A stretch of 47,656 nt of DNA from Desulfovibrio sp. (GTDB lineage Bacteria; Desulfobacterota; Desulfovibrionia; Desulfovibrionales; Desulfovibrionaceae): assembly GCA_017450275.1 (NCBI GenBank), contig JAFSVD010000006.1, positions 1 through 47,656 on the forward strand, read 5' to 3'. Positions 7,025 to 35,741 of the stretch are shown here, piece after piece. The position numbers were made by a program, and so were the translations under genes. The notes under the pieces were generated by a model that ran no database searches, was not told where the DNA came from, and worked only from the letters and a program-made list of their open reading frames with translations. The first letter of the stretch is position 1. Every line of letters begins with the position of its first letter.

Positions 7025-7780
7025 ATGGCGTTTTGGACGCGCCTTGCGGTTGCGCTCTCCTTTTTAACGTGCGTCGTTTCTGTGCGAACTGATGCCAAAA
7101 CCTTGCAAGAAAGCGTTGCCGCCTTTGGCTGGGCGGGGCTTTGTATAGGATGTCTCTGTCTTTGTCCATCGATCCCTGTTTGTGCGTTCATAAGCCCCTA
7201 TGCGCCCTTGTTGGCTGGCTGGGTCTGGCTTTGTGTTGCGATAGGGGTGAGTGGAGGGATGCATTGGGATGGGCTTGCCGATGTGGCTGATGGGCTTGGC
7301 AGCAGAAAGCAGGGGGAGGAATTTTGGCGCGTTGTCCACGACAGTTCGCTCGGAACCTTTGGGGTTTTAGCGCTGGGTCTCGTTGGTATCGGGCAATGGC
7401 TTTGCGTGAGCATACACTGTGAGCACAAGGATTGGCTTGTGCTGCTTGTTGCGCCCATGTGGGGTCGACTGGCGCCGATTTGGCTTGCGCAAGGACACTG
7501 TGTATATAGCGGATCCAAAACAGCGCACTTTCTGGCAGAGGCCTTGCAAAAAAATCCGTGGATTGGAAGACGCTTTTGGATGCTTTTTTGGGCTCTTCCT
7601 TTGGGGCTCTGTTTTGTTCTCGATATGCCAGGTCTTCTCTGCCTCTATCCCGCACAATACGGCCTTCTTGTTTGGCTGAGACGCGTGGCAGCATCATACG
7701 GCGGGATCAGTGGGGATTTTTTAGGAGCCTCAGTTGAGCTCTCTGTGCTCTGCTTTTTGGGCACAAGCCTTGTGCAATAA
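7025..7780 (+). CDS. cobS: Adenosylcobinamide-GDP ribazoletransferase (cobalamin-5'-phosphate synthase)
   Basis: This membrane enzyme joins adenosylcobinamide-GDP to alpha-ribazole (phosphate) in the last part of B12 synthesis. The 251-aa protein is strongly hydrophobic, and its family motif is clear: GGMHWDGLADVADGL near residues 76-90, followed by HDSSLGTFGVLAL. The ATG follows GGGGAGGGG and directly adjoins the rex stop, so the two genes are probably cotranscribed. A mobile element begins 12 bases after its stop. cobB lies nearby on the other strand. Confidence 0.93.
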   Translation: MAFWTRLAVALSFLTCVVSVRTDAKTLQESVAAFGWAGLCIGCLCLCPSIPVCAFISPYAPLLAGWVWLCVAIGVSGGMHWDGLADVADGLGSRKQGEEFWRVVHDSSLGTFGVLALGLVGIGQWLCVSIHCEHKDWLVLLVAPMWGRLAPIWLAQGHCVYSGSKTAHFLAEALQKNPWIGRRFWMLFWALPLGLCFVLDMPGLLCLYPAQYGLLVWLRRVAASYGGISGDFLGASVELSVLCFLGTSLVQ

Positions 7781-7792
7781 TCAAGGATGGGC

Positions 7793-7976
7793 GTGTCCCA
7801 TTTCATTCATATTCTCTAAAAAATAGCAATGCATGACGCGCACCGATGCGGGTTTCGATGAAGTGTGGTACGACAGGGTTCGGTCAAGCTGGTAGCTCTG
7901 GGCAGCCTATGGCACTACCAGTACGTATGGTAGCGTCCATGGTGCTGTGTTGAGTCATTTTTTTAGGGCTTTTCAT
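7793..7976 (+). ncRNA. Candidate omega RNA (HEARO RNA) 5' portion
   Basis: IscB nucleases use an RNA encoded directly upstream of their gene, with the guide at its 5' end. This segment lies directly upstream of the iscB start. It contains a hairpin CTGGTAG (7889-7895) / CTACCAG (7915-7921) and blocks shared with copy C. By analogy the guide would come from the sequence just left of 7793, the end of cobS. No covariance model could be run, so this is an inference from position, repetition and hairpins. Confidence 0.45.
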
Positions 7977-8192
7977 ATGGAAGCAATCGTTTATGTAAAA
8001 GGGTATAACGGAAACACGTTGTCCTCAACTAAACGCTGCGGGCATGTCCGTTGGCTTTTGAAAAATGGAAAGGCAAAAGTGATACGAAAAAAGCCTTTCC
8101 AAATTCAACTTCTCTATCAGGAGGAGGAAAAATATAAAACCAAGGAGACGCAAAAAACTGTCCTTGGTATTGACCCTGAGTGCCAGAATTAG
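7977..8192 (+). pseudogene. iscB: Truncated IscB (RRXRR/PLMP domain and start of RuvC-I)
   Basis: Seventy-one codons encode the IscB N-terminal domain: a short VYV start, then [19 protein letters not shown] (family form PTKRxGKVRRLLKxxKAKV), then [11 protein letters not shown]. The frame reaches the first RuvC motif, LGIDPE, and stops three codons later. Full-length IscB has roughly 400-500 residues with split RuvC and HNH domains; both nuclease domains are missing. No recognisable remainder was found in the next 90 bases in any frame. ATG 7977 is chosen over 7947 because homology starts there. It is a remnant and cannot cut DNA. Confidence 0.82.
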
Positions 8193-8463
8193 CTATCTCC
8201 GTTATTATGAAAAACGGAGAGAAGAAACAAGAAAATTCCTCTCTTGATGCGGGATCAGAGGCTGCATCACAGAAATGCACCGCCTGTGCATTTTACCTGT
8301 TTCTTCGCAGATTCCGCCCTACTGCTCGCTGACCACAAATGAGGATTCAGGTTCTCCCCAGTTCTTCAGCCGGAGGATGGAATGTATCGGCTGGATGAGA
8401 AACTGGGTGCGATCTGCGGTTGTGGATTTTCTCCAATGTGAATGAAAGAGATCAGGAGGAAGT

Positions 8464-9042
8464 ATGGATTTTTTACCCTTTGTTGAACAGGCAAGAACGT
8501 GTCGGCGTTTTTACGAGGATAAACCCTTGTCGCAGGATGATCTGACCTGGTTGGTTCGCTGTGCACGCGCAACCCCAAGCGCGAGAAACGCCCAGGTCGT
8601 TCGCTTTGTCTTGATCACCGGCAAGACCTGTGCCCAGGTTTTTCCAAACACCCATTGGGCCATGGCGTTGAAGGATTGGAAAGGGCCTGTAGAAGGAGAG
8701 CGTCCAACAGCCTTTCTTGGGCTCGTGCTTCCCAAAGACGCTCCGTCCATAGCGCTGATTGATCTGGGGATTGTGGCGCAGACCGTGCAATTAGCCGCCC
8801 ACAGCAGGGGCTATGGCTCATGCATCATCAAGTCCTTCGACAAAGAGGCCGTCTCTACCCTGCTTTCGCTTGACCCATCCCAAAGCCTTGAACTGGTTGT
8901 CGGTCTTGGGGTTGCGCTTGAAAAGCGCGGCATTTGCCCAATCGATTCCTCTGGCTCTCTCAACTATTTTCGGGATGCCGAAGGCACGCATTGGGTGCCC
9001 AAACGCTCTGTTGAGGAATTGATCTGCGGGCGTTTTTCCTAA
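8464..9042 (+). CDS. Nitroreductase family flavoprotein
   Basis: This is a 192-aa FMN-dependent oxidoreductase of the nitroreductase superfamily; the substrate is unknown. The N-terminal pattern ARTCRRFYEDKPLSQDDL and the following SARNAQVVRFVLI match the FMN phosphate and isoalloxazine contacts. LGIVAQTVQLAAHSRGYGS is the typical central helix. The family's VVGLGVA strand follows. The start is fixed by AGGAGG, which lies immediately right of mobile element copy A, so the 5' UTR of this gene is partly element-derived. Its stop overlaps the cobB stop by a few bases, tail to tail. Confidence 0.85.
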   Translation: MDFLPFVEQARTCRRFYEDKPLSQDDLTWLVRCARATPSARNAQVVRFVLITGKTCAQVFPNTHWAMALKDWKGPVEGERPTAFLGLVLPKDAPSIALIDLGIVAQTVQLAAHSRGYGSCIIKSFDKEAVSTLLSLDPSQSLELVVGLGVALEKRGICPIDSSGSLNYFRDAEGTHWVPKRSVEELICGRFS

Positions 9043-13862: not shown

Positions 13863-14137
13863 TGTCACATTTCATTCATATTCTAGAAAAGAGAAACATA
13901 TGACGCGCACCTAGCCCCAGGGCGGATGCGGGTTTAGATAGGGTGGAAAAATATCAGTCCATTTTCCACCTGTGCATTCTACCCGTTTCTTCGCGGATTC
14001 CGACCCACTGCTCGCTGGCCACGAATGACGGATTCAGATTCTCCCCAGTTCCTCAGCCGGAAGATGTGGCGTATCGGCTGAGGAACTGGGTGCTATCTGC
14101 GGCCGTGGATGTTCTACAATGTGAATGAAATAGACCA
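13862..14137 (+). mobile_element. HEARO-like element, copy B, without ORF
   Basis: This is a 276-base copy with no protein gene. It starts GTGTCACATTTCATTCATATT and ends CTACAATGTGAATGAAATAG. The left end and the reverse complement of the right end share ATTTCATTCAYATTSTAG. The right half matches copy A, from CCTGTGCATT at 13969. Its hairpin CCCAGTTCCTCAGCCG / CGGCTGAGGAACTGGG is perfect over 16 bp. The GATGAAGTGTGG core is missing and replaced by a local hairpin GGTGGAAAA / TTTTCCACC (13942-13970). It ends 16 bases before the purA ATG. Confidence 0.8.
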
Positions 14138-15431: not shown

Positions 15432-16314
15432 CGCGCATCTCGCCACGCTTTTTCCAGCCATTTGCGATCAGAAACTCGAGGCGTTCCGACAAAACCTTCA
15501 CCGTTTACGAGCCAATCCTCCGCAGGTTCTCCTTTTTGAGGGCGGGCTCGAAGCAGAGAGGCGGGATATGGCCAAGTATTGGGCGGCAACGTGCTTGTGT
15601 GAAGCCCAAGATGCGCCCTGTCTTGCCTGCCCGATCTGTGAGCGCGTGGCTGACGAGAGCCATTTTGATATCATGGCCTATGACGGGGCTGTTGCGCAGA
15701 AAGAGGATGAGGCCAATCCTGGTTTCTACCGCGCCTTTTCCGCGGAAAACGCCCGCAATATACGGGTGCGACTGCGCGACAGCCCCAAGGGTCGATACCG
15801 GGTGGTTTTTTTTACGGGCATTGCCTTGAGCCGGCCGGAAGCGCCCAATGCCTTGCTCAAAATTTTAGAGGAGCCCTCACAAACCGCCCTCTTTGTTTTG
15901 CTTGTGCCTGCCAGGGGGCAGATTCTGCCAACCCTGGTTTCGCGTTCCCATTGCCTCACCTTGCCTTGGCCGGATCCCCTTGCGCAAAAGCTGCCTGAGG
16001 GGGAGGAGCTTGCCAAACGCTTTGCCCAGTTTTTTTCCAATCAAGGCGGCTTTTTAAGCCACATTACCGGCAAATCCGCTCTGACCCAAAGCCAGGCGCA
16101 GGCTTTTTTCACCGTGTGCCGGCAATCGATTATTCGGGCTTTGGCAGGCTGTTCCGAAACAGCGCTCGATCAGGTTTTTGCCAAATGCAGTCCACAGCTT
16201 TTGCAAAATAGTGTGGTGTGGATACAGGAAGCCACGTCCATGCTTTCTGTGCAGGTGAATCCTGCCAGGGTGGTTGAAGCCTTTGCCATGCGCCTCTATA
16301 CAAGCCTTTCCTGA
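15421..16314 (+). CDS. holB: DNA polymerase III delta-prime subunit
   Basis: This clamp-loader subunit has 297 aa. The AAA+ fold shows the zinc module cysteines ([16 protein letters not shown]). The sensor segment of the family reads [20 protein letters not shown], ending at the SRSHCL Arg-finger region (VSRSHCLTL). The P-loop is degenerate ([10 protein letters not shown]), as is usual for delta-prime. It starts with TTG inside the purA 3' end, which implies translational coupling. Its end overlaps the rlmD end by 19 bases, tail to tail. Confidence 0.88.
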
Positions 16315-17669
16315 TTGGGCACAAGGAGCGCAATGGATTCAAGATGGGCTGTGTGGGGGAAAAGATCCACGGGCTGTATGGCTGTGACGGTATAGCTTGT
16401 GGTGAGCTGGGCAAGATCGCGGGCAAGGGTTTGGGGATTGCAGGAGATGAGAAGAAGCCCGGGAAAGGCGCGTTTGCGCAAAAGGGCAAGACTGGCAGGA
16501 TCAATGCCTGCTCGAGGCGGATCAACAATGGCTACGCAATCCTTGGGAAGCGCATCGAGGATACGGGGCAACACTGTTTCGCTTGTTCCGGCATGGGCTT
16601 CATAGTGGGTAAAACCAAAGGATTGGGCGTTTTTTGCCGCAAAAGCAACAGAGGCTTTGTGGGCTTCGACGCTCACGATGCGTTGCGTGGGATGGGCGAG
16701 AAGCAGGCCTGGTGCCCCGACGCCGGCATAGAGGTCGAGCAGGCTTGAGGCAGAAGCAAAAGGGACGAACAAAGCACGCGCTTGTTCCAGCAAGCGTTCG
16801 GCGGCACCCAGATTGACCTGGAAAAAAGACATCGGGTCGAGCGCAAAGCATTTTCCACCCAGGGGAAGGGTGAATTCGGTATGTGAGGGGATAAAGCTCT
16901 GGCGGCGATGTTCTCCAAACGCCCACAAATCATTGCTTGAGCGCTCTTCATGGATAAAGCCGCGGATGTCGGGGAATGTCGCAAAGAGCGTCTGGGCAAG
17001 ATGGGCGATCTGTCGAGTTTGGGCAGCCTTGGCTTTGCGGGTGATTAGGATGAGCCAATAGGAGCGCTCTCCCTGCAAGGATTGCCCGATCCGCACAATG
17101 AGATGGCGCCAAAAAGGCGCAGGAGTGGGGTCTTGGTTGACCCAGTCTGCCACAAAGGCGCGCAGAGTGGCCACAGGTTCTGGCATGAGCAGACAGTGGT
17201 CTGGTTCAATGACTGTGTGCTGTTTGGCAGCTCGAAAGCCAAGGCGCCAGCGTTTTTCTTCAAAACCAAAGGCGAATTCGATTTTATTGCGAAAGTGCCT
17301 TGTGGCAGGGCTTTTCGTCATGGGCGCAAGGATTGCGTCGATGTGATTGGCGTCAAGGTGCCCAAGGCGAAGGAGTGCCTGTCTGAGGATATTTTCTTTA
17401 TAGTGGCATTGGGCAGCGTAGGGCAGGCGTTGCAAGGGGCATCCGCCACACAGGGGGGAAGAACACAGGGGATCCTCTAAGCCCTCTTCTTCCAGAACCT
17501 CAAGCACATGGGCTTTTGCGTAGCGCTCTTTGTGCTGATCGATGGCAACCCGTACCACCTGGCCTGGGAGGGCGCCTGTGACAAAAAGGACTTTGTCGGC
17601 ATCGGGTTTGGCAACACCACATCCGTCCTGACTTATATCGACAATCCGCACCGTACATGTTGCATTCAT
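16296..17669 (-). CDS. rlmD: 23S rRNA (uracil-C5)-methyltransferase, RlmD/RumA-type
   Basis: This is an SAM-dependent RNA m5U methyltransferase of the TrmA/RlmD family. A TRAM-like beta domain occupies about residues 1-60. An iron-sulfur site follows with Cys69, Cys74 and Cys77 (CSSPLCGGC) and Cys159. The methyltransferase domain shows DLYAGVGAPGLLL, DPPRAGID, the nucleophile Cys in SCNPQTLARDL, and HLESIALL. It has 457 aa. The exact target uracil cannot be decided from sequence, so RlmC- or RlmD-type function is open. Confidence 0.88.
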   Translation of the reverse strand: MNATCTVRIVDISQDGCGVAKPDADKVLFVTGALPGQVVRVAIDQHKERYAKAHVLEVLEEEGLEDPLCSSPLCGGCPLQRLPYAAQCHYKENILRQALLRLGHLDANHIDAILAPMTKSPATRHFRNKIEFAFGFEEKRWRLGFRAAKQHTVIEPDHCLLMPEPVATLRAFVADWVNQDPTPAPFWRHLIVRIGQSLQGERSYWLILITRKAKAAQTRQIAHLAQTLFATFPDIRGFIHEERSSNDLWAFGEHRRQSFIPSHTEFTLPLGGKCFALDPMSFFQVNLGAAERLLEQARALFVPFASASSLLDLYAGVGAPGLLLAHPTQRIVSVEAHKASVAFAAKNAQSFGFTHYEAHAGTSETVLPRILDALPKDCVAIVDPPRAGIDPASLALLRKRAFPGLLLISCNPQTLARDLAQLTTSYTVTAIQPVDLFPHTAHLESIALLVPNQERLV

Positions 17670-17852: not shown

Positions 17853-18118
17853 GTGTCATATTTCATTCATATTCTAGAAAGAGAAACGCATGACTCGTAG
17901 CCCTGGCTTGGATACGAGTTGAGATGAAGTGTGGCACACAAAGACGTGATACGACGGGGTAAGGCAATCCCCCTCTCGGTGATGCCAAGCTGGTAGCTCT
18001 ACCGTGTTTACCTGTTCGCTGGCCACGAATGACGGATTCAGATTCTCCCCAGTTCCTCAGCTGAAAGACAGACTCTATCGGCTGGATGAGGAACTGTACA
18101 ATGTGAATAAAATAGACA
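17853..18118 (+). mobile_element. HEARO-like element, copy C, without ORF
   Basis: This 266-base copy starts GTGTCATATTTCATTCATATT and ends TACAATGTGAATAAAATAGAC. It keeps the left core GATGAAGTGTGG (17933-17944) and AAGCTGGTAGCTCT (17987-18000) shared with copy A. It then passes directly to the right half, so the iscB part is deleted. The hairpin CAGTTCCTCAGCTG / CGGCTGGATGAGGAACTG is kept with a 4-base insertion and a U-G pair. ACAAGG occurs on both sides (left flank 17845-17850 and right edge), a possible 6-base target duplication. AAGGAGG follows the right end. Confidence 0.78.
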
Positions 18119-18129
18119 AGGAGGTACTT

Positions 18130-23734: not shown

Positions 23735-23787
23735 ATGAAGAGAAGGAGGCGGCATTGCTCATGACGAGCATGCTGAAGAATGCATGA
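23735..23787 (+). CDS. Two chained mini-ORFs in the gapA leader
   Basis: The first mini-ORF, 23735-23764, reads MKRRRRHCS. Its TGA overlaps the ATG of the second in ATGA. The second, 23761-23787, reads MTSMLKNA, and its TGA overlaps the gapA ATG in ATGA at 23784. The only strong ribosome site here, AAGGAGG at 23743-23749, lies about 12 bases before the second mini-ORF and 35 before gapA. gapA may therefore be translated by coupling. The layout is seen directly; whether either peptide is made is unknown. Confidence 0.35.
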
Positions 23788-24800
23788 AGAAAGTGAATGT
23801 AGCTATCAATGGTTTTGGTCGCATTGGTCGTCAGGTTTTTCGTGCCTTGCATCAGTCGTACAAAGACAGAGTGACTGTGGTGGCCATCAATGATTTGTAC
23901 AGCGCAGAACAGAATTTTCATCTGGCTGAATACGATACAGTCTATGGCCGTGGCCATCTCAACGCGCAGGTGCAGGGCAACGAAGTGACTGTTGATGATT
24001 GGCACATCCACTGCTTCAGTGAAAAAGATCCGGCAAAATTGACCTGGAAGGACTACGGTGCCGATATCGTCATCGAAAGCACGGGTATTTTCCGCAAGGC
24101 CTCGCAGGCCGCTATCCATATGGAAAACGGAGCCAAGAAAGTTATTATTACGGCTCCTGCCAAGGAAGAAGATCTCACCATCGTGATGGGCGTCAACGAC
24201 AAGGCCTATGATCCCAAAAAGCACAACATTGTTTCCAATGCCTCCTGCACAACCAACTGCTTAGCTCCTGTGGCTCTGGTTCTGCAGCGTGAATTCGGCA
24301 TCAAGCTGGGCAACATGGTGACCATCCACTCCTACACCAACGACCAGCGCATCTTGGATCAGGCGCACAAAGATCCCCGTCGTGCTCGTGCCGGTGCCTG
24401 CAATATCATTCCCACCACAACCGGTGCTGCCCAGGCTGTTGCCAAGGTTATTCCTGAATTGGCTGGCAAGTTCTCCGGCTATTCGTTGCGCGTTCCCACC
24501 CCGACGGTTTCGGTCGTGGATTTCTCGGGCATTTTGGAAAAAGCAACCGATACCGAGACCGTGCTTGCGAAGATGAAGGAAGCGTCGGAGACTTATTTAA
24601 AGAACATTTTGGCCTACAACGACTTGCCCTTGGTTTCCATGGACTTCAAGGGCAATCCCGCCTCTTCCATTCTCGAGGCTTCGTGCACAACCGTGCAGGA
24701 TGGTACCTTGGTCAAGGCTGTTGCCTGGTACGACAACGAATGGGGCTATTCCTGCCGCGTGTGCGACCTGGTCTGCTTGATGCAGGAAAAAGGCCTGTAG
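23784..24800 (+). CDS. gapA: Glyceraldehyde-3-phosphate dehydrogenase (type I)
   Basis: This glycolytic enzyme oxidises G3P to 1,3-bisphosphoglycerate. The 338-aa protein has the NAD-binding start VAINGFGRIGRQVFRAL with Asp in AINDLYS, which favours NAD over NADP. The catalytic Cys lies in SNASCTTNCLAP, the substrate segment is THSYTNDQ-like (IHSYTNDQRILDQ), and the end is WYDNEWGYSCRV. The ATG itself has only a poor ribosome site. Mobile element fragment D begins directly after its stop codon. Confidence 0.96.
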   Translation: MKKVNVAINGFGRIGRQVFRALHQSYKDRVTVVAINDLYSAEQNFHLAEYDTVYGRGHLNAQVQGNEVTVDDWHIHCFSEKDPAKLTWKDYGADIVIESTGIFRKASQAAIHMENGAKKVIITAPAKEEDLTIVMGVNDKAYDPKKHNIVSNASCTTNCLAPVALVLQREFGIKLGNMVTIHSYTNDQRILDQAHKDPRRARAGACNIIPTTTGAAQAVAKVIPELAGKFSGYSLRVPTPTVSVVDFSGILEKATDTETVLAKMKEASETYLKNILAYNDLPLVSMDFKGNPASSILEASCTTVQDGTLVKAVAWYDNEWGYSCRVCDLVCLMQEKGL

Positions 24801-24868
24801 TTCTCTAGCCGAAGGATGGGACGTATCGGCTGGGTGCGATCTGCGGCCAATGTGAATGAAAGAGACCA
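24801..24868 (+). mobile_element. HEARO-like element, fragment D (right end only)
   Basis: This 68-base fragment contains TAGCCGAAGGATGGGACGTA, then TCGGCTGGGTGCGATCTGCGG and CCAATGTGAATGAAAGAGAC. It matches the right ends of copies A and B. It begins inside the long hairpin, immediately after the gapA stop, so the left part is lost. Copies A, B and C precede a start codon; here no gene starts downstream, because gapA and queA converge. Confidence 0.75.
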
Positions 24869-33986: not shown

Positions 33987-35741
33987 ATGGCAGAGAAGGA
34001 TAGCGGACAAGAAGAACTCAATTTTGAAGCAGCTCTTGAAGATTACATGACTCCAGAGTTCGGCGATCTCGACGAGGGGTCTATTACCAAGGGCGAAGTG
34101 GTCCGCGTGGACGATGATACCGTGTTGGTTGACGTGAATTTCAAATCCGAGGGTCAAATACCTGCGTCAGAATTTCGCGATGCCGATGGGAATTTGAATA
34201 TCCATGTTGGCGATAAAATTGATGTCTATGTCGTTCGGAAGAATGAGAACGATGGCACCATTACGTTGTCGTTTGAGCGGGCGAAACGGATGCAGGTCTT
34301 TGATCAGCTGGAAGAAGTTCAAGAGAATGAACGTGTGATCAAAGGCCGTATCATGCATCGTATCAAGGGTGGATATACGGTCAATATCGGCGGTGTCGAG
34401 GCTTTTCTGCCAGGTTCTCATGTCGATTTGCGGCCGGTTCCGGATATGGATGCTTTGGTCAACCAGGAATTTGAATTCCGTGTGCTCAAAATCAATCGCC
34501 GTCGCAGCAATGTCATTGTTTCGCGGCGTGTTCTTCTTGAGGAAGAGCGGGATACCAAGCGCAAAGAGCTTTTGACAACCCTGCAAGAAGGCCAGTTGGT
34601 CACCGGCAAGGCCAAGAATATCACCGAATACGGTGTCTTTGTCGATTTGGGTGGCTTGGATGGCCTTTTGCATATCACGGATATGAGCTGGAAGCGTATC
34701 CGCCATCCCCGCGAAATGATCACCATGGGGCAAGAGCTCACCCTCAAGGTGCTTTCCTTTGACCGGGAAAACAACAAGGTCTCCTTGGGTCTGAAGCAGC
34801 TTGTGCCCGATCCCTGGAAGGATATCACCGAACGCTATCCTGAAGGCATGAAATGCCAGGGCAAGGTCACCAATCTCGTCGATTACGGCGCGTTTGTGGA
34901 ACTTGAGCCCGGCGTGGAAGGCCTGGTGCATATTTCGGAAATGTCCTGGACTCGCAAGCTCAGACATCCCTCCCAGATGGTGCATGTGGGCGATGAGGTC
35001 GAAGTTGTCATCCTTGGGGTTGATGGCGAGAAGAAACGGATCAGCCTCGGCATGAAGCAGGTGCGTCCCAATCCCTGGGAGCTTGTGGCCGAGAAATACC
35101 CCGAAGGGACGATTCTTGAAGGTGTTATCAAGAATATCACCGAATTCGGGATGTTTATCGGGATTGAGGATGGCATCGACGGCTTGATCCATGTCTCGGA
35201 TATTTCCTGGACGCGCAAGATCAGACATCCCAATGAGATGTTCAAGGTGGGCGATGTTGTTCAGGCCAAGGTTCTGACTGTTGATCAAAACAGCGAGAAG
35301 TTCACCCTGGGCATCAAACAGCTTTCCGACGACCCCTGGGCGCATGTGCCTGAAACCTATCCTGAAGGCACCACGGTGAAGGGTGTCATCACCAATATCA
35401 CGGATTTTGGGCTCTTTGTGGAAGTTGAGGACGGCATCGAAGGCCTTGTCCATATTTCTGAACTCTCTGGTGGGAAGAAGGGCAAACCCGTGCCTTCCGA
35501 AGCCTACAAGGAAGGTCAGGAAATCGAGGCCAAGGTCATCCATGTCAGCGCGGAAGAGCGCAGACTGGGTCTTTCCATCAAACAGATTCGCGAAGATGAA
35601 GAACGCCGCAAACCCAAGGAATTCCATGCAGGACCCGCGGAGAGCGGACAGAATTTAGGGGATCTTTTGAAGGCAGCCCAGGAAGACAGCCAGGAAGCCG
35701 GAGAAAAGAGTCCTGCTCCTGAGGAAAAAACAGAGGCCTAG
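33987..35741 (+). CDS. rpsA: 30S ribosomal protein S1
   Basis: S1 brings mRNA to the small subunit. The 584-aa protein contains six S1/OB-fold repeats of about 75-90 residues. The later ones are marked by repeated TEYGVFVDLGGLDGLLHIT, DYGAFVELEPGVEGLVHIS, TEFGMFIGIEDGIDGLIHVS and TDFGLFVEVEDGIEGLVHIS. The C-terminal 40 residues are polar and acidic. MAEKDSGQEELNF behind TTGGAGGAA is chosen as the start; the frame is open to 33909 but lacks a ribosome site there. A terminator follows about 60 bases downstream. Confidence 0.96.
   Translation: MAEKDSGQEELNFEAALEDYMTPEFGDLDEGSITKGEVVRVDDDTVLVDVNFKSEGQIPASEFRDADGNLNIHVGDKIDVYVVRKNENDGTITLSFERAKRMQVFDQLEEVQENERVIKGRIMHRIKGGYTVNIGGVEAFLPGSHVDLRPVPDMDALVNQEFEFRVLKINRRRSNVIVSRRVLLEEERDTKRKELLTTLQEGQLVTGKAKNITEYGVFVDLGGLDGLLHITDMSWKRIRHPREMITMGQELTLKVLSFDRENNKVSLGLKQLVPDPWKDITERYPEGMKCQGKVTNLVDYGAFVELEPGVEGLVHISEMSWTRKLRHPSQMVHVGDEVEVVILGVDGEKKRISLGMKQVRPNPWELVAEKYPEGTILEGVIKNITEFGMFIGIEDGIDGLIHVSDISWTRKIRHPNEMFKVGDVVQAKVLTVDQNSEKFTLGIKQLSDDPWAHVPETYPEGTTVKGVITNITDFGLFVEVEDGIEGLVHISELSGGKKGKPVPSEAYKEGQEIEAKVIHVSAEERRLGLSIKQIREDEERRKPKEFHAGPAESGQNLGDLLKAAQEDSQEAGEKSPAPEEKTEA

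Follow-up and report, generated by a model that had tools for sequence, protein, structure and literature searches.

The element at positions 7794-8454 of the window, the 47,656-nucleotide stretch of Desulfovibrio sp. DNA analysed here, is probably a decayed, non-autonomous copy of a terminal-repeat element that carried an IscB of the OgeuIscB group, with the guide RNA encoded upstream of it. At the level of sequence, its family is characterized by inverted ends, a short duplication, an NNAG target, one full-length IscB, copies without an open reading frame (ORF) and IS630-like pieces, and the predicted first stem of the RNA-like region begins at the first base of the element. The window copy on its own is ordinary; it is a decayed member of a large family, and it is the family that is worth an experiment.

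The element in the window

The element measures 661 bp and is located between cobS (7025-7780) and a nitroreductase-like gene (8464-9042). Matches to the end patterns showed that its left end, TGTCCCATTTCATTC, begins at 7794 and that its right end, GAATGAAAGAGATCA, finishes at 8454, and a repeat finder detected the inverted pair 7801-7813/8435-8447. The span of 7793-8454 given in the initial annotation, which was made from the sequence alone, was thus right to within 1 nt, and its reading of the stretch as a mobile element was borne out by the matching inverted ends and by repeated copies of the family in the same genome. The features of the window are listed below, with the evidence for each in brackets.

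7794..8454, + strand: whole element, 661 bp (end patterns, length, flanks, gene matches)
7790..7793, + strand: left flank GGCG, the same as the right flank GGAG at three of four positions (flank comparison)
7794..7813, + strand: left terminal repeat TGTCCCATTTCATTCATATT, one mismatch to the pattern (end-pattern search)
7794..7953, + strand: guide-RNA-like (omega-RNA-like) region, partly deleted near 7880-7884 (alignment, helix table, fold z -1.41)
7793..7806, + strand: 5' strand of the predicted, guide-adaptor-like first stem, made up of the terminal repeat and the flank base next to it (pairing count of 13 of 14 with 7858-7871, reached by 0 of 100 shuffles)
7858..7871, + strand: 3' strand of the predicted first stem, ATGAAGTGTGGTAC (sequence, pairing count)
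7920..7946, + strand: predicted terminal hairpin of the RNA-like region (fold, alignment, helix table)
7977..8192, + strand: IscB remnant of 71 codons plus stop, with the RRXRR part and the LGIDP of RuvC-I (ORF, profile matches)
8193..8276, + strand: continuation of the IscB homology in broken form, as far as codon 108 of the full copy (alignment to the IscB of contig C17)
8280..8454, + strand: right-end module found in many copies; it contains an inverted pair, at 8357-8407, that can form a hairpin (BLAST, repeat search)
8435..8454, + strand: right terminal repeat AATGTGAATGAAAGAGATCA, two mismatches to the pattern (end-pattern search, inverted pair)
8455..8458, + strand: right flank GGAG, an NNAG motif, in a GGAGG stretch ahead of the ATG at 8464 (sequence, flank comparison)
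13863..14137, + strand: sister copy of 275 bp with no IscB match, duplication ATAG/ATAG, just ahead of purA (14154) (end patterns, gene match)
17854..18119, + strand: sister copy of 266 bp with no IscB match, flanks GGCG/GGAG, ahead of mreB (18221) (end patterns, gene match)
24801..24868, + strand: solo right end, directly after the stop codon of a glyceraldehyde-3-phosphate dehydrogenase gene (23784-24800) (right-end pattern, gene match)

The ORF within the element runs from the ATG at 7977 to the stop codon at 8190-8192 and is contained in an 81-codon frame. This frame matched RRXRR (PF14239) above the cut-off (E 1.3e-9) and positions 1-59 of NF040563, guided_IscB (E 3.5e-11, under the cut-off set for full-length proteins). 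Alignment to the full IscB placed one TGA and one TAG within 7977-8276. The earlier description of an IscB N-terminal domain of 71 codons from a dead protein therefore stood, the RRXRR match being the one whose failure had been named as an argument against it, and the homology continues in broken form up to codon 108.

Both parts flanking the ORF had also been described as intact, and this was correct for the ends of the element only. Compared with its siblings, the window copy has lost two features near 7880-7884, the P4 hairpin GGGTAAGG..CCTTACCC and the greater part of the linker CTATCGGTGATGCC, and these losses rule out an intact RNA in this copy. The first stem (13 of 14 pairs) and the terminal hairpin are retained, and the RNA-like region folds slightly better than shuffled sequences (z -1.41, 18 of 200 shuffles as good). 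A direct-repeat search found no repeat array upstream of the ORF, where repeated core sequences had been proposed. Since its IscB is truncated and its RNA part is without a hairpin and the linker, the window copy is most likely dead cargo now.

Copies, ends and insertion sites across the genome

To place the window copy within its family, we searched the assembly of the host genome (1.84 Mb, 70 contigs, 74% complete). BLAST of the element yielded at least 64 pieces, with 40 of 81 candidates scored. Searches that allowed up to three mismatches returned 45 matches to the right-end pattern, one of which (C18:95496-95515) is a left end read backwards, and 28 to the left-end pattern; the reversed patterns, run as controls, gave no match in either case. 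Both ends could be placed in 19 copies of 60-817 bp, and the copy on contig C17, of 2573 bp, brings the end-to-end copies to 20. Four of these contain IscB pieces (the window copy and copies on C37, C11 and C66b), two contain IS630-like pieces (C8 and C58), the C17 copy has, besides its complete IscB, 46 codons of another protein, and the remaining 13 match neither IscB nor the IS630-like pieces. Some ORF-less copies, such as L053, keep nearly all predicted RNA helices, and others, such as a copy of 60 bp, are without the RNA. That smallest fully placed copy (L074, C18:15465-15524) has a perfect GTAG duplication and is hardly more than two ends, as is a copy of about 35 bp recognized by eye (L079, C11 near 35167-35186).

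The flanks of the 19 paired copies identified the element as a transposon bounded by terminal inverted repeats and a duplicated target. Of 76 positions compared between the four-base flanks on the two sides, 65 agreed, a number that 0 of 10,000 shuffles attained (mean 46.1), and the flanks were identical in 11 copies (shuffled mean 2.3). In the C1 copy the last 14 nt of the right end are present twice; the inner end was used in a first count, which gave 64 of 76, and the outer end in the later counts. Duplications of 2, 3 and 4 bp were considered. Flank positions 1 and 2 agreed in 17 and 15 of the 19 copies (shuffled means 6.2 and 8.2), and positions 3 and 4 in 14 and 18, the last two saying little about the length of the duplication because both hardly vary. 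Three copies (those at 7794 and 17854 in the window and the one on C37) have NNCG on the left and NNAG on the right, and the flanks of the C17 copy (GTAG/GGAG), like those of the window copy, agree only in part. A duplication of 4 bp is favoured by the C41 copy, which is flanked by CTAA on both sides.

Among 44 right flanks, 42 read NNRR, 41 NNAG, 40 NNAG followed by a purine and 24 NTAG; position +3 was A in 42, position +4 was G in 42 and position +5 was a purine in 43, with A or G at +2 in 17. The left flanks were associated with gene ends, with ORFs called mechanically (at 17854 in the window, the upstream gene rlmD, 16296-17669, reads in the opposite direction). Within 60 nt of 24 of the 29 left flanks lay the end of an ORF of 80 or more codons reading in the same direction (638 of 4000 random sites, 144 of 512 NTAG sites), and in 11 of the 29 its stop codon was the last three bases (6 of 4000 and 65 of 512, respectively); opposing ORFs ended within 60 nt of 11 of 41 right flanks. 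Many right flanks lead into a Shine-Dalgarno-like stretch and a start codon, for example at 8455-8464 in the window. A start codon lay within 30 nt downstream in 25 of 43 cases, compared with 39% at random sites, which is a poor test of insertion at Shine-Dalgarno sequences, and the association was moderate for NNAGG with an ATG no more than 14 nt after it (21 of 41, compared with 445 of 1607 control sites). Because the duplication restores NNAG, the downstream ribosome site would stay whole after insertion.

The full-length IscB, the RNA-like region and the IS630-like protein

A full-length IscB behind the same ends, which the initial annotation had suggested looking for elsewhere in the genome, was found at C17:16971-18482. 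It is an open frame of 504 amino acids behind a perfect left end, and a perfect right end follows downstream, after the first 46 codons of another frame. The closest solved protein is OgeuIscB (E 6e-106), with 45% identity over an alignment that includes 424 OgeuIscB residues. The two align at LGIDPG, a glutamate, HYHH and EN, and KDH..DA, which we take to be RuvC-I, RuvC-II, HNH and RuvC-III, respectively. The protein matched RRXRR (E 2.3e-38), HNH (21.9 bits, cut-off 21.4) and NF040563 (205 bits, cut-off 175), and is thus predicted to combine PLMP/RRXRR, a split RuvC and HNH in one protein, as an IscB does. The suggestion that the RNA of the window copy may work with a full IscB encoded elsewhere was therefore supported in one respect, in that an arrangement in trans is possible because the full-length IscB sits behind the same left end, and failed in another, the RNA part of this copy not being intact.

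A protein similar to this IscB was found in 8 of 149 genomes at E<=1e-20 and in 2 of 348 at E<=1e-50, the host genome being included in both counts and the other genome at the stricter threshold being G063. The absence of a related IscB in close relatives, which would have spoken against the original proposal, was not observed, as both G063 and G059 have one. The left region was found by DNA search in 2 of 79 genomes of the genus, the host and G059, which is from another species. In G059 a lone left end of 75 nt (C193, L121 6187-6261) is 100% identical to the C17 copy, no right-end match was found near it in the stretch taken, and the genes beside it are presumably phage-like. The same genome also contains a diverged and decayed copy, found through its protein, behind a gene that we take to be glmS. 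Further related loci comprised two distant ones in genome contigs and two, then eight, in viral contigs, and a plasmid search gave eight records, none above 60% identity. A single viral contig of 177 kb (IMGVR_UViG_3300011008_000034) carries two OgeuIscB-like genes, L143 and L144, which are 45-46% identical to OgeuIscB.

On C17, the stretch from the left end to the start of IscB is predicted to fold at -93 kcal/mol (z -5.78, 0 of 200 shuffles as good). We drew a structure by hand on this copy, including a possible pseudoknot, and compared 20 sequences with it, 19 from the host genome and one from G059. Paired cells amounted to 93.1%, versus 32-46% when the structure was slid by 1-3 columns, a comparison that favours the structure because it was drawn on C17. 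When partners were reshuffled among the sequences, 93.2% still paired (403 of 500 as high), and covariation within the family was not above that of shuffles (0.042 vs 0.039, 68 of 500 as high), with two pairs changed on both sides, so that covariation as a proof of the RNA fold was not reached; as the copies are close relatives, this test neither proves nor disproves the fold. RNAalifold found almost nothing on an alignment of 22 sequences, in which the copies differ largely by deletions.

The first stem was evaluated in 19 of the 29 copies with a left end, ten being left out because they are short or because the 3' strand was not seen. It has 11-14 of 14 possible pairs when the best of all placements is taken, and we added a shuffle control because the count uses the best placement. 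The mean was 13.2, versus 10.6 for shuffled downstream sequence, a margin that makes the stem less striking than the raw count, and 10 of the 19 copies, including the window copy, exceeded all 100 shuffles; the stem was unconvincing in L064 (42 of 100 shuffles as high), L045 (11) and L057 (9). The flank base immediately before the element pairs in 14 of the 19 copies. The RNA region is kept in G059 (score 123, best of 300 shuffles 45) and, in G063, ahead of an IscB of 57% identity (score 72, best of 300 shuffles 39). In G063 the sequence preceding the shared core is different and yet has a predicted hairpin, both strands of the terminal hairpin are different, and the TGGTA/TACCA pairing was not seen in the G063 alignment. 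Among ORF-less copies, L053 (C30:61442-61776, 335 bp, CAAG/CAAG) has all pairs of the model but one and is without the two-pair extension. In two ORF-less copies the 3' part folded at best slightly better than shuffles (L053 z -1.21, L057 z +0.83). The idea that the RNA may have outlived its nuclease hence fits the siblings better than the window copy, the RNA part of which is not intact, because some siblings without IscB, such as L053, keep nearly all predicted helices.

A second protein is associated with the same right end. P0002, on C64, and its relatives on C8 and C58 adjoin this end, and P0002 has remote matches below the cut-offs to NF033545 (E 1.3e-4, 21.5 bits, cut-off 100) and DDE_3 (E 0.002, 18.4 bits, cut-off 28.6). 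It is 27-31% identical to seven proteins of relatives, and the five of these seven that were scanned are IS630 above the cut-off, with 130-207 bits on NF033545. The first catalytic acid is replaced in the only copy that covers its position and the second in all four that cover it (C64, C8 twice and C30), and the third is kept. No IS630 match above the cut-off and no intact transposase were found in the genome, nor was an intact IS630 catalytic triad found between the ends. Four IS630-like copies, L082 (C64:126-1082), L072, L084 and L135, have open frames, with two catalytic acids replaced where covered. Their dN/dS of 0.59-0.85 (six pairs of four copies) indicates neither clear constraint nor clear neutrality; the protein may be in decay or may be a repurposed DNA-binding protein. 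The 46 residues encoded on C17 match no NCBIfam family and occur once in the genome; they and P0002 may be parts of one protein.

Alternative explanations and relation to known systems

ORF-less HEARO copies occur in bacteria, and the initial annotation had labelled the element as HEARO-type. That it is a canonical HEARO (RF02033) element is very unlikely. The window family does resemble HEARO RNAs in having a structured RNA directly 5' of an IscB gene, and IscB and HEARO proteins are described as one family of which 65% of the 5' regions match RF02033 (PMC9755519). However, the covariance model gave no match in 7600-8600 even at E<5, none at the gathering score anywhere in the window and none in four related loci (L034, L122, L123 and L048), and this lack of a match, named beforehand as an argument against the label, distinguishes the window family from HEARO RNAs. 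The model is a weak test for the OgeuIscB clade, because four OgeuIscB-type loci (L141, L142, L145 and L147) also gave no match at E<0.5. Three matches were found in the genome as a whole (C43, C69 and C34), all below the gathering score, and the one on C69 (43 bits) lies directly upstream of a second, different and complete IscB (L002, C69:1076-2650); the RNAs on C34 and C43 are similar, and a broken IscB match follows the latter. No copy of the window element is among these three. In addition, the second IscB scores 464 bits on NF040563 versus 205 for that of C17, and the RNAs of the two are no closer than shuffles (35 of 300 as high).

Two further alternatives concern the RNA and the target, and we lean against both. 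It may well be, if not quite as an even bet, that the RNA-like part is functionless in ORF-less copies and that these are ordinary MITEs, in which the left region is kept for its terminal repeat and a transposase-binding sequence. The smallest copies, at 60 bp with a GTAG duplication and at about 35 bp by eye, contain little beyond the ends, which indicates that ends suffice for movement; there is no covariation beyond shuffles, several copies including the window copy have deletions inside the RNA, and two ORF-less copies fold weakly. Against this, several ORF-less copies keep at least 150 nt of the left region, more than the ends would need, L053 keeps nearly every helix, and the region is conserved in another species ahead of a 57%-identical IscB with different first bases. 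It is also conceivable, and we rather doubt it, that the target preference reflects an IS630-like transposase alone and that the fit to an IscB target-adjacent motif (TAM) is coincidental. IS630 elements favour TA-containing sites such as CTAG, NTAG was found in 24 of the 44 right flanks, and the motif is copied to both sides by the duplication, as expected of a staggered cut. Nevertheless, an NNRR-type TAM suits the flanks better than a TA rule, because the A, G and purine at +3, +4 and +5, respectively, are nearly invariant (42, 42 and 43 of 44), and 17 of the 44 flanks have A or G at +2.

The preferred reading, a decayed copy of a terminal-repeat element that carried an OgeuIscB-group IscB, suggests how the family could have spread. 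The ends would have been moved in trans by an IS630-type transposase that is missing from this assembly or dead in it; in contrast to IS200/IS605-type elements, the inverted repeats together with the duplicated target point to a DDE-type transposase and not to Y1 TnpA. Read-through from the upstream gene would then produce an RNA that starts with the last bases of that gene as its guide. The flanking gene end is the candidate guide because the first 13 bases of the element form the guide-adaptor-like stem of the predicted RNA, the position of the last guide base being uncertain within 4 nt because of the target duplication (2, 3 or 4 bp). Together with IscB, such an RNA would cut the uninterrupted site, with NNAG serving as the TAM, and repair of the cut site would copy the element back in. 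A more far-reaching picture, which we offer tentatively and regard as unlikely in full, is a swarm of IscB 'ghost' elements in which the terminal repeat doubles as the first stem of the guide RNA, the guide is the end of the gene ahead, one OgeuIscB-type nuclease serves all copies in trans, and empty sites are cut at a stop-codon or Shine-Dalgarno motif that doubles as the TAM.

IS630 elements duplicate TA. Like IS630 elements and their MITEs, the window family has inverted ends, a short duplication, often at a TA-containing site, and remote similarity to NF033545/DDE_3; it differs from them in that two of three catalytic acids are replaced where covered, in carrying an IscB and a guide-RNA-like region within the element, and in a duplication of up to 4 bp (NNAG). 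With elements of the IS200/IS605 type that carry TnpB or IscB it would share a guide that records the insertion site, as reported for TnpB (PMC11870625), and IscB/HEARO genes are described as sparsely found near TnpA (PMC9755519).

The nearest protein is OgeuIscB. The TAM reported for it is NNRR (PMC9640706), and in its omega-RNA the guide is followed immediately by a guide-adaptor hairpin of 14 bp, the scaffold also having a pseudoknot and terminal hairpins (PMC9640706; PDB 7xht). The C17 IscB is 45% identical to OgeuIscB with RuvC and HNH motifs in place, and the window family inserts before NNAG, which fits NNRR, and starts with a predicted stem of up to 14 pairs, followed by a possible pseudoknot and a terminal hairpin. 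Unlike that of OgeuIscB, the first stem of the window family encloses further predicted hairpins, and similarity to RNAs of the OgeuIscB type was weak (25, 8, 5 and 32 of 300 shuffles as high for L141, L142, L143 and L145, respectively). Inverted ends were not found around L141. At L142 (IMGVR_UViG_3300021426_000237) an inverted pair of 29 nt and 76% identity (4765-4793/6507-6535) brackets the RNA start and the gene end; it is partly A/T-rich, with no evident duplication by eye. L143 has many A/T-rich inverted pairs, none of them outstanding, and is too A/T-rich to tell. The pair at L142 suggests that terminal repeats may also occur outside the window family.

The nearest overall situation is that of the Fanzor ghost loci. 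For Spu-1 of S. punctatus, which encodes SpuFz1, 134 ORF-less loci with ends of the same kind have been reported, along with 42 that have a full or partial nuclease, and RNAs of the ghosts guided SpuFz1 in human cells; a conserved dinucleotide lies beside the left repeat, and in its account of these loci the report found no transposase between the repeats (PMC10432273). The window family likewise comprises many loci with terminal inverted repeats and a predicted guide-RNA region without a nuclease ORF, and fewer with a nuclease; by sequence it thus has the shared ends and the ORF-less guide-RNA region of OMEGA ghost loci, and the logic is the same as in OMEGA systems. Spu-1, in contrast, is eukaryotic, belongs to the TnpB/Fanzor lineage and has its RNA at the right end, whereas the window family is bacterial. 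Among the matches listed in our literature search, the Fanzor paper (PMC10432273) was the only one to mention ghosts.

Inverted ends, a duplicated target and an IS630-like protein set the vehicle proposed here apart from the Y1-type elements that are generally cited for IscB, and our literature search, judged by titles, returned no paper joining IscB with IS630 in that sense. Cas9 descends from IscB, and the way in which IscB promotes the spread of its own element has, to our knowledge, been little tested. One genome seems to hold both an IscB-bearing element and miniatures that keep its ends, several of them with the guide-RNA region, and this would be a natural set-up in which to ask whether nuclease-less guide RNAs act in trans in bacteria.
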